Assembly: GCA_017629595.1 (NCBI GenBank)
Contig: JAGBWW010000025.1
Location: 1 to 33,731, forward strand
Direction: 5' to 3'
From: Clostridia bacterium
GTDB lineage: Bacteria > Bacillota > Clostridia > Christensenellales > CAG-314
DNA length: 33,731 nt
Shown: positions 6,406 through 18,660 of the stretch, piece by piece
Position numbering within the stretch: the stretch's first letter is position 1
Layout: each line of letters starts with the position of its first letter
The notes under the pieces: model-generated
The model's input: only the letters and a program-made list of their open reading frames with translations
Databases searched by the model: none
What the model was told of the DNA's origin: nothing
Made by a program: the position numbers and the translations under genes

Positions 6406-8171
6406 CTTTCTTCCCCCTTAAAGGTTACTAAAACTCTTGTACCAATGCCTTCTTGACTGTTTATTTCTAACGTTGCACCAACGGCATCTTGCAAGCGTAT
6501 TTTTATGTTTTTGAGGCCTGCAACTTCGTCTTTGGGTTTTGTTATAAGATGTTCCACGTTGAAGCCAACGCCGTCATCAACAATTTCCACGCAAACGTTG
6601 TCGCCTTTTCTATAGGTGGAAAGGACAATTTTGCCCCCTTCCAATTTTTTGCAAATCCCGTGCTTGATGGCGTTTTCCATCAAAGGTTGAATGGTCATGC
6701 TAGGCACGGAGAAGTTGCTTTCATCAATTTTATATTCTACTGCCAATCTATCCCTAAAACGAACCTTTTCAATATCTACGTAGGCACGAATAAGGGCAAG
6801 TTCTTTTGCAAACGGTATGATAGTATCCACATTTTCCACGTCCATTGTGGAACGAAGATATTTGGAAAAGTTTGTCGTCATGTCGTAGGCAACTTTGGGT
6901 TCGGACACGATAAGTGCACGAATTGCTGCCAACGTATTAAAAATGAAGTGCGGTCGTCTTTGACTGAACATCAAATAACGTTTTGTCTTTTCCAATTCTT
7001 TTTCCGCAACGTAACCTTTTTCTGCTTCGTAAATGGTACGCACGACGGTAGATGCGTGAACCACTGTCAAGAATACCAAAAAGCCCAAACCGGAAATAAG
7101 CCCTGTAGGAAGAAATACATTAAAAACGTAGAACAAAACGTATTCTACCAAAAAACTTGTCAAAGCAATTACAACGCCAACTACTCGTGTAACAAAGTTG
7201 GGACTCTTTTTGCTTTTTCTAAAATTGATAAAGAACGGTACGCAATATACGATTGCTTCCAACAAAATGATGACGTTGGTCAAAACGTTGAGATCGGTCA
7301 ACTCTGCCCAGCCCAACATATACAATGCCATTTCTGTAACAAGGTTAAGTGCCGAAACATACTCCAACGCCTTGGCAAAAGGTTTTGCCCATTTGTCTCG
7401 CGTAGAAAGTCTTATGTACGAGGCAAAAAAGAGGGCAAACATCATAAGGGCAATATAAGTTGCTAAATAAACTAATTGTTCATTTACAAACAAGCCGATG
7501 ACTTTTGATTCAAACACCAACCAAATTCCCAAAAAGAGCGCTGCAACACCCAAAAACGTTTGTGCGCGTTGTTCCCATCTTCTTTTAAGAAATACGCCTG
7601 AAGAAACGGAAACAAACAAGCCTGTGCAAAGCACAAAAACCCCAACCATCATTTGAGGTAGATGTTGCCAACAAATGTATTGGAACAAGGCAACGTTTGT
7701 ACCGAACTCCACTTCGTAGGTTTTGCCACTTGAACTTTTTAAAGGCGATTGCAAAGTGATGGAAATTTCTTTTCCCGCCATGTCGCTTGTGATTTCCAAA
7801 AAGTGCCATCTGCTGTAATTTGTTTTGCCAAACATTCGGATTCCATCAGTGTCATAAAAGTAAACAACTTTGCCATCAATGGCGACCTTTACACTTTGTT
7901 TGGAAGAACGCATCATCATCACGGGAATTTCCGACACGTCTTGAGGCAAAGTGGCGGTTATTGTAAACGCTTCGCCCTTTTCAACGTCAAGGTTTTCAGG
8001 CAAAGAAATGGCCTCGCCTTCATAAAACCATTGCAAGCGAGTTAAACTGTCTTGATAGGGCGTATTTGTCTTGTCAAACTGAAAAATGCTTATCCAAAGG
8101 ACAACCGTCATTGTCAAAAAACAGACAAGAAAGACGGAGCCCAATATCCAACCAAGAGTTTTTCTTTTCAT
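6402..8171 (-). CDS. LytS/YehU-type sensor histidine kinase with 7TM-like sensor
   Basis: A 589-aa membrane sensor kinase. An N-terminal signal anchor (about 8-30) is followed by an extracytoplasmic beta-rich domain (about 45-165). Seven or so hydrophobic helices follow (about 172-375), resembling the 7TMR-DISM layout. A short coiled linker (380-398) leads into the His_kinase domain. The phospho-acceptor is H408 in SQRRPHFIFNTL, where the usual residues before PHF are IN. N500 lies in QPLMENAIKHG, the ATP lid acid motif is DDGVGF (532-537) and GLKNI is at 552. The ligand is unknown; the extracellular domain has a carbohydrate-binding look, but that is inference. The start begins a clear signal anchor, though its ribosome site is weak. 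It is coupled to the response regulator by ATGA and follows the reductase gene by 43 bp. Confidence 0.9.
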   Translation of the reverse strand: MKRKTLGWILGSVFLVCFLTMTVVLWISIFQFDKTNTPYQDSLTRLQWFYEGEAISLPENLDVEKGEAFTITATLPQDVSEIPVMMMRSSKQSVKVAIDGKVVYFYDTDGIRMFGKTNYSRWHFLEITSDMAGKEISITLQSPLKSSSGKTYEVEFGTNVALFQYICWQHLPQMMVGVFVLCTGLFVSVSSGVFLKRRWEQRAQTFLGVAALFLGIWLVFESKVIGLFVNEQLVYLATYIALMMFALFFASYIRLSTRDKWAKPFAKALEYVSALNLVTEMALYMLGWAELTDLNVLTNVIILLEAIVYCVPFFINFRKSKKSPNFVTRVVGVVIALTSFLVEYVLFYVFNVFLPTGLISGLGFLVFLTVVHASTVVRTIYEAEKGYVAEKELEKTKRYLMFSQRRPHFIFNTLAAIRALIVSEPKVAYDMTTNFSKYLRSTMDVENVDTIIPFAKELALIRAYVDIEKVRFRDRLAVEYKIDESNFSVPSMTIQPLMENAIKHGICKKLEGGKIVLSTYRKGDNVCVEIVDDGVGFNVEHLITKPKDEVAGLKNIKIRLQDAVGATLEINSQEGIGTRVLVTFKGEER

Positions 8172-15263: not shown

Positions 15264-15290
15264 AAGCGAAAATCTTTTTGATTTTCGCTT
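15264..15290 (-). terminator. dnaA terminator
   Basis: An 11-bp stem, AAGCGAAAATC/GATTTTCGCTT, with loop TTTTT starts 7 bp after the dnaA stop and is followed by a T run on the minus strand. Confidence 0.92.
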
Positions 15291-15297
15291 AGTTTTT

Positions 15298-16659
15298 CTA
15301 TCTTTTAAGAATTTTGTCCTTTATGTCTTTTACTTGGGCAGCAGTGTTGCTGTTTGTTTTTATTTGTTCGCTGATGATATCTCTTGCGTACATAATCGTC
15401 GTGTGATGTCTGCCACCAAAATAATCGCCAATTGATTCCAAAGGAATGGGCAACAATTCTCTTGCCAAGTACATTGCAATTTGTCTGGGGAAAGCAATTT
15501 CTTTGTTTTTCTTTTTGCTTACCATCATTTCTTTTGTGATACGGAAATATTCACACGTTGCTTCGACAATTTTGTCTATGGACAAAATTTCTTTTTGATT
15601 GTCGCCATAGTCTTCCAAAGCTTGCCAAACAACCGACATATCGTTGTAATCTCCGCCAACCAACATTGCTTGTGAAATGATACGATTGAGCAAACCTTCC
15701 ATTTCTCTTACGTTTGTTTTGCAACGATCGGCAATAATGCGCAAAACGTCCATGGAAACTTGTGCATGGAAATTGATGGCTTTCTTTTGCAAAATGGCAA
15801 TTCTTGTTTCAAAATCGGGGGGATTGATGCTGGAAATGACACCCATTGCAAAACGTGTGCGCAATCTTTCTTCAATATTTATTTCTTTGGGGGGTCTGTC
15901 CGAGCAAATGACAAGTTGTTTGTTTGCCATATACAAATCGTTGAAAGTGTGGAAAAACTCTTCCAAAGTAACTTCGGTGTTTGCCAAAAATTGAATATCG
16001 TCAATCATCAAAAGGTCAACGCTACGATATTTGTTTCTAAATTTTTTGGTTGCGTCGGGATCTTTTGCTCCTGCACGGACGGCTTCAATAAGTTCATTTG
16101 TAAACTTTTCGCTCGTTGTGTAAATGGTTTTCTTTTCGGGATGATGCTTTTTAACGTAGTTGCCAATTGCGTGCAAAAGGTGAGTTTTACCCAACCCTAC
16201 ACCACTGTGAATAAACAAAGGATTATATTTTCCACCAGGAGCTTCGGCAACTGCTTTACAAACGGCTGCTGCGTGTTGGTTGCTTTTGCCAACGATAAAA
16301 TTGTCAAACGTATAATTTTCTACAAAGGTGGTTTGTTCAATACTGTCCAAAAAGTTTTCTTTTGAAACGGGAACGTCCACTTCTTTTTCAATTTTTTCAA
16401 TATCAGCCAATTCTTTTTCCAACAATACTTTTACGTCGGTAATGGTAGGGAAAATTGTTGACGTTGCAAGTTTGAGCAACTCTTTATAGTTTTCGTTTAC
16501 AAGTCTTTTTAATGCAGGTGTTTGAGCAAGCAAAATAAAGGTGTCGTTGTAAACACCAACGGGTTCCAAATTGCTGATATATACGTCGTATGCAAGGGTG
16601 GAAACTTTGCTTTGAACTTCAATCAAAACGTTGTTCCATAATTGGTTTAATTTAATCAT
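15298..16659 (-). CDS. dnaA: Chromosomal replication initiator DnaA
   Basis: A 453-aa replication initiator. Domain I (1-80) and a short linker precede the AAA+ domain with Walker A GVGLGKT (153-159), Walker B LLMIDD (216-221) and the sensor region around RLRTRF (265-270). Domain IV ends with GGRHHTTIMYA (415-425). The DnaA signature there is normally GRDHTT; the Asp (D433 of E. coli, a DNA contact) is replaced by His418. The start at 16659 has CGAGGA 8 nt upstream; a longer frame is open but has no such site and crosses the promoter. The gene ends in TAG and is transcribed away from dnaN, the reverse of the usual arrangement. Confidence 0.97.
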   Translation of the reverse strand: MIKLNQLWNNVLIEVQSKVSTLAYDVYISNLEPVGVYNDTFILLAQTPALKRLVNENYKELLKLATSTIFPTITDVKVLLEKELADIEKIEKEVDVPVSKENFLDSIEQTTFVENYTFDNFIVGKSNQHAAAVCKAVAEAPGGKYNPLFIHSGVGLGKTHLLHAIGNYVKKHHPEKKTIYTTSEKFTNELIEAVRAGAKDPDATKKFRNKYRSVDLLMIDDIQFLANTEVTLEEFFHTFNDLYMANKQLVICSDRPPKEINIEERLRTRFAMGVISSINPPDFETRIAILQKKAINFHAQVSMDVLRIIADRCKTNVREMEGLLNRIISQAMLVGGDYNDMSVVWQALEDYGDNQKEILSIDKIVEATCEYFRITKEMMVSKKKNKEIAFPRQIAMYLARELLPIPLESIGDYFGGRHHTTIMYARDIISEQIKTNSNTAAQVKDIKDKILKR

Positions 16660-16677
16660 TTGTTTTTCCTCGCCTAT

Positions 16678-16705
16678 ATTATACACTAAAAAACTCATTT
16701 TGCAA
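16678..16705 (-). promoter_or_regulatory. dnaA: Promoter of dnaA
   Basis: On the minus strand: TTGCAA, 16-bp spacer, perfect TATAAT. The predicted RNA starts only a few bases before the ribosome site, giving a very short leader. Confidence 0.65.
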
Positions 16706-17003
16706 GTATTTTTATTTATACTGCATTTTTCATTGTTTTGGTGTATTTTGGAGTATAAAAACAAAGAAAACTCTTGATTTTTTCTTTTGTTTTCTTTATA
16801 ATAAATACAAGAGTTTGAACAAGAAAAACAAGTGATTTTTGTGTATAAAAACGAGTTTTCCACAAAACTTATCCACACAAATTATGTCTAAAATAAAACT
16901 ACATTTTGTAGTTTGTGTTTGGATAAAAATCTATATATTGAGTTTTTGGTTAAAAACACTCCACTTTTGCACAAACTCACACAAACTACTACTACCACTA
17001 CCT
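16706..17003. other. Probable oriC between divergent dnaA and dnaN
   Basis: AT-rich, gene-free DNA. DnaA boxes: TTATCCACA at 16869-16877 (+, perfect), TTATACACA at 16840-16848 (-, matches TTATNCACA), and one-mismatch boxes TTTTCCACA 16856-16864 (+), TTATCCAAA 16918-16926 (-) and TTTTGCACA 16965-16973 (+). A 9-bp inverted repeat AAACTCTTG/CAAGAGTTT (16768-16776 and 16808-16816) and a direct repeat GTATAAAAAC (16753 and 16843) are also present. Gene direction flips here. Position between dnaA and dnaN, box clustering and base composition together support an origin. Confidence 0.8.
16986..17000. other. Candidate DnaA-trio element
   Basis: Plus strand CTA CTA CTA CCA CTA; the lower strand read 3' to 5' is GAT GAT GAT GGT GAT. 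DnaA-trios (3'-GAT-5' repeats next to DnaA boxes) form the strand-opening element of B. subtilis oriC. This run follows the box-like TTTTGCACA by 12 bp and precedes an AT-rich stretch on the dnaN side, the same polarity as in B. subtilis. Confidence 0.55.
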
Positions 17004-17044
17004 TTGAAATTGTTAATAACAATCGTCAACAAACGGAGGACTCT

Positions 17045-18151
17045 ATGAAAATTATCGTCAACGGATTGGATTTCAACTCAGCAGTAACTTCTGTATCAAA
17101 AGCATTGCCTCAAAAAGAATTTTCTCCCATCTTGGAAGGAATTAAAATTGTTGCTCACGACGACAAAGTTGTTTTATTTGCATCCGACACAGATTTATCC
17201 ATTGAAAAAACAATTTCTGCAAGAGTTGAAGAAGACGGCGAAATTTTGGTACCCGGCAAACTTTTGACCGACTACATCAGAAATATTGCCGATTCCAACG
17301 ATATTATTCTCACTTGCGAAGACGACAACAAACTCACAATCACTTATGCAAGAAGCGAATGTAATATCCAATGTTTGCCTTTTGAAGAATATCCCGAAAA
17401 GGAAGCAATTGATAAATCAAGTTATTTTGTAACGACACAAAAAAATCTTAAAGACATTGTTTCAAAAGTAATTTTCTCCGTTGCAACGGAAGACACAAGA
17501 CCAATTCTCAAAGGTATCTTTATTGAAGCAAAAGAATACACACTTTCCGCAGTAGCAACAGACGGTTACCGTTTTGCAAAATGCAACAAACCTTTGGAAG
17601 AAAGAAACGACGGTTTGTCGGCAATTATTCCTGCAAGAAGTCTTAACGAACTTTCCAAAATGCTTTCCGACGATGATGATTTGGTAAAGGTTTATATTGA
17701 AAAGAACTATATGTCTGTTGATTTGCCCGGCACAACGTTGTCTGCAAGACTTTTCACCGAAGGACAATATATCAGTTACGAAAACCTTATTCCCAAAGAA
17801 TTTGTAACGACGGTTGTAGCAAACAAAGAAATTGTAGAAAAATCTTTGCAAACGGCAGCAATTATGTCTCGTGGTGACAAAAACAATTTGGTTTCTTTTG
17901 ACATTGAAGAATACACAATGCTCATCACTTCTTCCAGCGAAGTAGGTAAAATCAAAGAAAGTGTTTCCATTTCCTTAAAAGGTAAAGATATTAAATGCAG
18001 TTACAACCAAAAGTACATTTTGGATTGTTTGAAAGGTATGGATTGTGATGCAATCAAAATGGAATTTACACAACACGCAAACTGTGTAATCACAATGAAC
18101 GGCAGTGACGAAGCATTGTACTTCATTTTGCCCGTAAGAACCTACGCATAA
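17045..18151 (+). CDS. dnaN: DNA polymerase III subunit beta (sliding clamp)
   Basis: A 368-aa sliding clamp that tethers the replicative polymerase to DNA. The N-terminus MKIIVNGLDFNSAVTSVSKAL, the DLSIEKTISA segment, VATDGYRFAKC in the middle domain, and the end ALYFILPVRTYA (the family ends in LP.R) are all typical. The length is normal. The ATG at 17045 has GGAGG 6 nt upstream. It is divergent from dnaA across the origin and followed by its own terminator, so it is a single-gene unit, unlike the common dnaA-dnaN operon. Confidence 0.97.
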   Translation: MKIIVNGLDFNSAVTSVSKALPQKEFSPILEGIKIVAHDDKVVLFASDTDLSIEKTISARVEEDGEILVPGKLLTDYIRNIADSNDIILTCEDDNKLTITYARSECNIQCLPFEEYPEKEAIDKSSYFVTTQKNLKDIVSKVIFSVATEDTRPILKGIFIEAKEYTLSAVATDGYRFAKCNKPLEERNDGLSAIIPARSLNELSKMLSDDDDLVKVYIEKNYMSVDLPGTTLSARLFTEGQYISYENLIPKEFVTTVVANKEIVEKSLQTAAIMSRGDKNNLVSFDIEEYTMLITSSSEVGKIKESVSISLKGKDIKCSYNQKYILDCLKGMDCDAIKMEFTQHANCVITMNGSDEALYFILPVRTYA

Positions 18152-18177
18152 ACCGAAATCTAAAAAACATAAAAATA

Positions 18178-18208
18178 AAGAGCAAGAAAAAAAATCTTGC
18201 TCTTTTTA
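18178..18208 (+). terminator. dnaN terminator
   Basis: A 10-bp stem, AAGAGCAAGA/TCTTGCTCTT, with an all-A loop and a T run, 27 bp past the stop. Confidence 0.9.
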
Positions 18209-18505: not shown

Positions 18506-18534
18506 TTGACAACCGATTTTTCTCAATATATAAT
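18506..18534 (+). promoter_or_regulatory. Perfect consensus sigma-A promoter
   Basis: TTGACA, 17-bp spacer, TATAAT: a full match to consensus, the best in the window. It is followed within 50 bp by an intrinsic terminator and not by a gene. Confidence 0.85.
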
Positions 18535-18540
18535 TTAAAC

Positions 18541-18606
18541 ACCTACCAATACGACAACCGAGGCAACTGCACAAAAACAAAAGCGCCGATACTTGGCGCT
18601 TTTTTA
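18541..18606 (+). ncRNA. Possible ~66-nt small RNA
   Basis: The stretch from the predicted start of the consensus promoter to a 7-bp GC-rich terminator stem (AAGCGCC/GGCGCTT, 18581-18601, loop GATACTT, T run to 18605). It has no ATG and no open frame with a ribosome site. It could be a small RNA, or an attenuated leader of argS, but argS has its own promoter after the terminator. It does not match a family I know. Confidence 0.5.
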
Positions 18607-18631
18607 TTGCAAATGGAAAAGGTGCATTTGC

Positions 18632-18660
18632 TTTACATTTTACCCCTTTGCCTTTATAAT
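18632..18660 (+). promoter_or_regulatory. argS: argS promoter, leaderless arrangement
   Basis: TTTACA, 17-bp spacer, perfect TATAAT. The -10 box ends only 8 nt before the argS ATG, so RNA should start at or within a few bases of the start codon. There is no Shine-Dalgarno. Confidence 0.7.

Follow-up and report, generated by a model that had tools for sequence, protein, structure and literature searches.

Divergent dnaA and dnaN genes at a functional-looking replication origin in a family of small-genome Clostridia

Few gene neighbourhoods in bacteria are as stable as the dnaA-dnaN pair, which serves to fix position 1 of genomes and as a guide to replication origins. In Bacillus subtilis and Clostridioides difficile the gene order is rnpA-rpmH-dnaA-dnaN, with dnaA lying between two sub-origins (PMC7561715). 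A basal unwinding system (BUS) with DnaA-trios was described in B. subtilis (PMC6669920); under the criterion of a DnaA-box no more than 16 bp from at least three DnaA-trios, 85% of 2070 bacterial origins are predicted to have one (PMC8287927). At the locus described here the parts are known ones, while their arrangement is new and family-wide, with promoters and regulation being predicted. A search of the literature found no divergently transcribed dnaA and dnaN, although subscription journals could still contain such a case.

The stretch of DNA analysed (the window, 33,731 nt) carries the two genes in divergent orientation, separated by a gap of 385 bp:

15298-16659, minus strand: dnaA, replication initiator of 453 aa, apparently monocistronic
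17045-18151, plus strand: dnaN, sliding clamp of 368 aa

DnaA was identified by TIGR00362 (471 bits against a cut-off of 343.9) together with the Pfam domains DnaA_N, Bac_DnaA and Bac_DnaA_C, and DnaN by TIGR00663 (250 bits against a cut-off of 137.65) together with three DNA_pol3_beta domains. The divergence of the pair had been reported in a first-pass annotation of the window, for which the outer stops (15298-18151) proved correct and the start codons were amended. The likely starts are the ATG codons at 16659 (dnaA) and 17045 (dnaN), with the longer open reading frame starts at 16878 and 16913 being disfavoured. The same annotation described a flip of gene direction at this point, and this was confirmed: between 2.2 and 16.7 kb almost every gene lies on the minus strand, whereas the genes from dnaN to 24 kb are on the plus strand, with dnaN, argS and two ABC transporter genes to the right of the gap all reading rightward. 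Its placement of both dnaA and dnaN on leading strands was likewise supported. Past the rightward run starting with dnaN, a minus-strand block occurs again at 24.0-28.1 kb. Rfam and tRNA scans of the window gave zero matches.

Within the gap, TTATCCACA is matched four times, with no more than one mismatch each, in 87 bp (16840-16926), as against approximately 0.1 expected by chance in 385 bp (Poisson P ~3e-6). The DnaA-box cluster claimed between the two genes is therefore present and denser than chance. Between this cluster and dnaN lie further elements, the tandem boxes being located by a family profile and the A+T-rich stretch being read from the sequence:

16840-16848, minus strand: DnaA box
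16856-16864, plus strand: DnaA box
16869-16877, plus strand: DnaA box, the one exact match
16918-16926, minus strand: DnaA box
16965-16981, plus strand: tandem boxes of the unwinding element, TTTTGCACA at 16965-16973 and the weak AAACTCACA at 16973-16981
16986-17002, plus strand: DnaA-trios, CTA CTA CTA CCA CTA CC, of the 3'-GAT-5' type on the opposite strand, directed toward dnaN
17003-17036, no strand: A+T-rich stretch, probable duplex-unwinding region, reaching the dnaN ribosome-binding site

Together the tandem boxes and trios form a canonical DnaA unwinding element (16965-17002), which is directed toward dnaN and lies 59 bp 5' of its ATG. It has the composition of a BUS, as TTTTGCACA (two mismatches) is followed after 12 bp by the trios. 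The origin that had been placed in the gap could thus be refined to this element, which belongs to dnaN. By analogy with B. subtilis, the adjoining A+T-rich DNA would probably be the region where the duplex unwinds.

When the DNA upstream of dnaN was read in all relatives, they were seen to share a block consisting of a box, a weaker box, a short spacer, CTACTACTACC-like triplets, A+T-rich DNA and then dnaN. A box-trio profile was built from 23 family members, each genus being left out in turn for scoring; the trios for it were picked by eye, and the later matches in canonical Bacillota came without tuning. With the genus left out, scores of 23-45 bits were obtained ahead of dnaN in every one of the 23 members used. 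The window element (at 16986) scored 41.1 bits when its own genus was excluded and 47.4 bits otherwise, the second-best place reaching 9.4 bits, and the element was the top profile site in nine of nine family contigs (window included) as well as in the scanned contig of genome G032. The DnaA-box consensus alone was rejected as an origin locator in relatives because clusters elsewhere compete, and the box-trio profile was used in its place.

To establish how widespread the arrangement is, 40 relatives were searched with both proteins, and the fetched loci were additionally compared by blast. A divergent adjacent pair was found in 14 genomes from eight genera of the window's family of small-genome Clostridia (G000, G001, G002, G005, G006, G007, G008, G010, G011, G013, G014, G015, G017, and G019), the dnaA gene of G010 being split between two contigs, of which the one with its start also carries dnaN. 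The nearest named records to the window's genome are Clostridia, several of them labelled Christensenella, and the order is therefore probably one near Christensenellales. In the sister genome G001, which is independent, DnaA is 90% identical and the gap has the same length (385-386 bp). The remaining members of the family (genus g3, G004, and G009) have the two genes apart. Beyond the family, gene orders in the taxonomic order, read by eye, showed a co-directional pair in most families, genes far apart in several, other neighbouring orders in a few f3 genomes, and a divergent pair with a 1.4-kb gap in G097. Among 80 named loci, all with both genes were co-directional except L033, from an uncultured Clostridia MAG. 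The statement that dnaA and dnaN are usually co-directional thus holds for nearly all other adjacent pairs, across the order plus about 70 named genomes. In the DnaA tree the window's family forms one clade (support 100/99), with divergence basal in the family and three lineages later undergoing separation. L033 and G097 are placed outside this clade, near canonical genomes, and divergence therefore probably arose more than once.

The minimum of cumulative GC skew had been predicted at 16.7-17.0 kb, and this was only approximately borne out: in this short contig the curve is a broad plateau, with hardly any slope between about 15 and 27 kb, and reaches its lowest value at 20.3 kb, so that skew of the window by itself was not decisive. 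In the 112-kb contig of G007, which is also divergent, the minimum (76375) is inside the dnaA-dnaN gap (75945-76404); in G008 and G015 it is outside the gap by 2 and 9 kb, respectively. Seven relatives from three families, in which dnaA is 3-131 kb from dnaN, allow the two genes to be told apart. In 7/7 contigs that carry both genes and have an interior minimum, this minimum is closer to dnaN than to dnaA, both in the window's family (0.6 vs 7.0 kb in G003, 3.0 vs 130 kb in G004, 0.07 vs 3.0 kb in G020, 0.6 vs 11 kb in G021, and 5.8 vs 20 kb in G023) and in two others (0.2 vs 39 kb in G032 and 1.4 vs 46 kb in G054). These seven relatives, along with G073, G049, and G104, have the unwinding element by dnaN and none by dnaA.

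When the same profile was applied to canonical Bacillus, Planococcus, Paenibacillus, and Clostridium, the element was found in most loci upstream of dnaN, mostly by 50-150 bp, and pointing at it. Its position and polarity relative to dnaN are therefore ancestral, and dnaA would therefore be the part that flipped, with the origin unmoved. In most testable cases the element and origin stay with dnaN. The wider statement that the origin always follows dnaN was discarded as too broad. In family f28 (G086 and G099) neither gene is at the skew minimum and the skew passes straight through both, so that the link with dnaN does not hold across the whole order; the profile found no element by either gene in G009, and no well-scoring element in families f13, f14, f19 and part of f15.

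Some observations were made apart from these comparisons. The f28 contigs G086:C4 (L235-L239) and G099:C2 (L240-L244) have no element by either gene, and their origin must be elsewhere. Five DnaA boxes, four of them exact, occur at positions 82-310 of L163 (G032:C4, ~5.08-5.31 kb), about 10 kb from the dnaN origin, and are possibly a DnaA-titration or regulatory site. Dense clusters at G007:C10:52468-52700 and G015:C6:39593-39890, which are 24 and 67 kb from the origin, are candidates for the same roles. L033 has three exact boxes just downstream of dnaN (8003-8093) besides the element upstream of it.

The analysis shows the gene order and how far it is conserved, as well as the element, the direction in which it points and its association with dnaN in relatives, and it is very probable that the gap is the chromosomal oriC, with dnaA inverted relative to the origin and the origin keeping its place beside dnaN. 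On grounds of parsimony, the ancestral order would have been rpmH reading left, followed by dnaA reading right, the unwinding element, and dnaN reading right. In the family ancestor a segment with dnaA and its promoter would have inverted, leaving dnaA reading left, then boxes and unwinding element, then dnaN reading right, the element having retained its place and polarity beside dnaN. The region upstream of dnaA and that between dnaA and dnaN are now one 385-bp gap, through which a Bacillus-type two-part origin would have become a one-part origin: boxes and element share this gap, rather than dnaA lying between two box clusters and co-directional with dnaN. By analogy with B. subtilis and C. 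difficile, DnaA from the left-facing gene would bind the box cluster (16840-16926) and the tandem boxes, then assemble on the trios and open the A+T-rich DNA just 5' of dnaN, with replication forks departing both ways, along dnaA and along dnaN.

The neighbouring genes bear on this history. G017 has gyrA, gyrB, recF, and dnaN reading left, followed by dnaA, rpmH, yidC, jag, mnmE, and mnmG reading right, which is the canonical order with dnaA alone inverted, exactly as predicted. G005 and G013 have gyrA, gyrB, recF, and dnaA reading left, and dnaN, rpmH, and yidC reading right, the G017 order with the entire dnaA-origin-dnaN unit turned. In these three genomes the neighbours other than rpmH are presumed to be the genes named, from the order in Mesobacillus locus L038 and the usual order of these genes. 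In the window's genome rpmH is on another contig. As dnaN heads the rpmH cluster in G005, G013, G006, G008, and G010, further inversions must be assumed, and the simplest history is a single dnaA inversion at the family base with later inversions about the origin.

The main rival to this history reverses the order of events, with dnaN jumping over the origin to join the rpmH-rnpA-yidC cluster while dnaA stayed by recF-gyrB-gyrA. The gene order of G005 and G013 would be accounted for in this way, as would the position of dnaN ahead of rpmH in G006, G008, and G010. However, the element is ancestral in position and polarity to dnaN, so that the origin must have moved too; G017 and G019 show the simpler inversion of dnaA only, and inverting the whole dnaA-origin-dnaN unit interconverts both states. 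Movement of dnaN is thus unlikely, while deserving some weight.

Two further explanations call the origin or the junction itself into question. Were the gap merely a shared regulatory region with DnaA boxes, and replication initiated elsewhere, the lack of a sharp skew minimum in the window would be understandable, as would the f28 genomes, whose minimum is marked by neither gene. This is very improbable given that the minimum falls within the gap in G007 and no more than 0.6 kb from dnaN in four other genomes, and that the gap holds a complete unwinding element. An assembly or binning artefact, in the form of a misjoined inversion between dnaA and dnaN, had been raised as a concern by the first-pass annotation, and the window's genome is indeed a draft in 90 contigs. 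Synteny leaves this with a negligible probability: the junction recurs with the same gap length in the independent G001, divergent order is conserved across the 14 genomes, and the gap promoters and unwinding element are conserved; misassembly was therefore rejected.

With regard to transcription, four further features were predicted:

15264-15290, minus strand: terminator-like hairpin just past the dnaA stop, an 11-pair stem and then TTTTAATTAC
16678-16705, minus strand: putative dnaA promoter, TTGCAA-16-TATAAT, at 24 nt from the ATG of dnaA, hexamers identical in sister G001
16774-16802, plus strand: putative dnaN promoter, TTGATT-17-TATAAT, lying upstream of every DnaA box in the gap, 1/100 shuffles as good
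18177-18205, plus strand: terminator-like hairpin of 11 pairs after dnaN, listed on the minus strand by the scan, with a T-rich tail visible on the plus strand

In place of the co-directional, co-transcribed genes of a dnaA-dnaN operon there are thus two divergent genes, both having a promoter-like and a terminator-like site of their own, the hairpins probably making each a single-gene unit. In 13/13 divergent family gaps tested, the best promoter directed at dnaN lies upstream of the unwinding element. Its individual scores are modest (in most gaps 0-9 of 100 shuffles did as well, in G006 52/100), a consensus promoter scan of the whole region found no excess over shuffles, and the weight for the dnaN promoter comes from its repeated position and not from individual scores. 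In the interval between dnaN and argS (18506-18660) there are also two near-perfect sigma-70-like promoters, TTGACA-17-TATAAT and TTTACA-17-TATAAT, plus hairpins, perhaps an argS leader.

It had been suggested that dnaN escapes the DnaA-controlled dnaA promoter. This stands insofar as dnaN is off the dnaA transcript, but the best promoter for dnaN is upstream of the boxes and element, so that its transcription would cross DnaA-bound origin DNA; if this promoter is right, dnaN transcripts would run across boxes and trios and dnaN would not escape DnaA. The putative dnaA promoter has no box within ~135 bp, and because no strong box is near it, dnaA may be less autoregulated here. In B. subtilis, surplus DnaA leads to repression of the dnaA-dnaN operon and to depletion of DnaN, according to work cited in PMC6669920, and by analogy the separation of the two genes would loosen DnaA repression of the DnaN supply. 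One tentative reading, which we consider possible but less than even in likelihood, is that the dnaN leader incorporates the unwinding element and thereby ties the origin to dnaN in this order, with a transcript that would start at a promoter upstream of the origin and pass through boxes and trios; DnaA would then throttle clamp synthesis, and dnaN transcription would aid or hinder opening. If so, dnaA would be free to flip, drift or leave.

A pair that is inverted in one family and repeatedly broken in that family's order represents a natural experiment. The origin follows dnaN in most of the cases open to testing, so that in such lineages it is better marked by dnaN than by dnaA. The arrangement also makes testable whether a two-part origin can become a one-part origin, and for what reason DnaA autoregulation was uncoupled from clamp supply.

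Compared with known systems, the locus resembles Synechococcus elongatus in having its origin by dnaN independently of the placement of dnaA, which in that organism is elsewhere and encoded separately from dnaN (PMC7198777); S. elongatus is of an unrelated phylum, and the available text of that source describes no divergent dnaA-dnaN pair. The likeness to oriC of B. subtilis and C. difficile (oriC1 and oriC2; PMC6669920, PMC7561715) is in the boxes, tandem boxes and trios directly upstream of dnaN and directed toward it. Unlike in those species, dnaA is inverted here, the sub-origins are merged in one gap, and there is no dnaA-dnaN operon. The box, the 12-bp spacer with a weaker box and the DnaA-trios are the same in kind as the BUS (PMC8287927), and here serve as a marker separating the histories of dnaA and the origin. 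The locus is thus a genuine family-wide rearrangement at a functional-looking origin, an origin of a known kind in a new arrangement.
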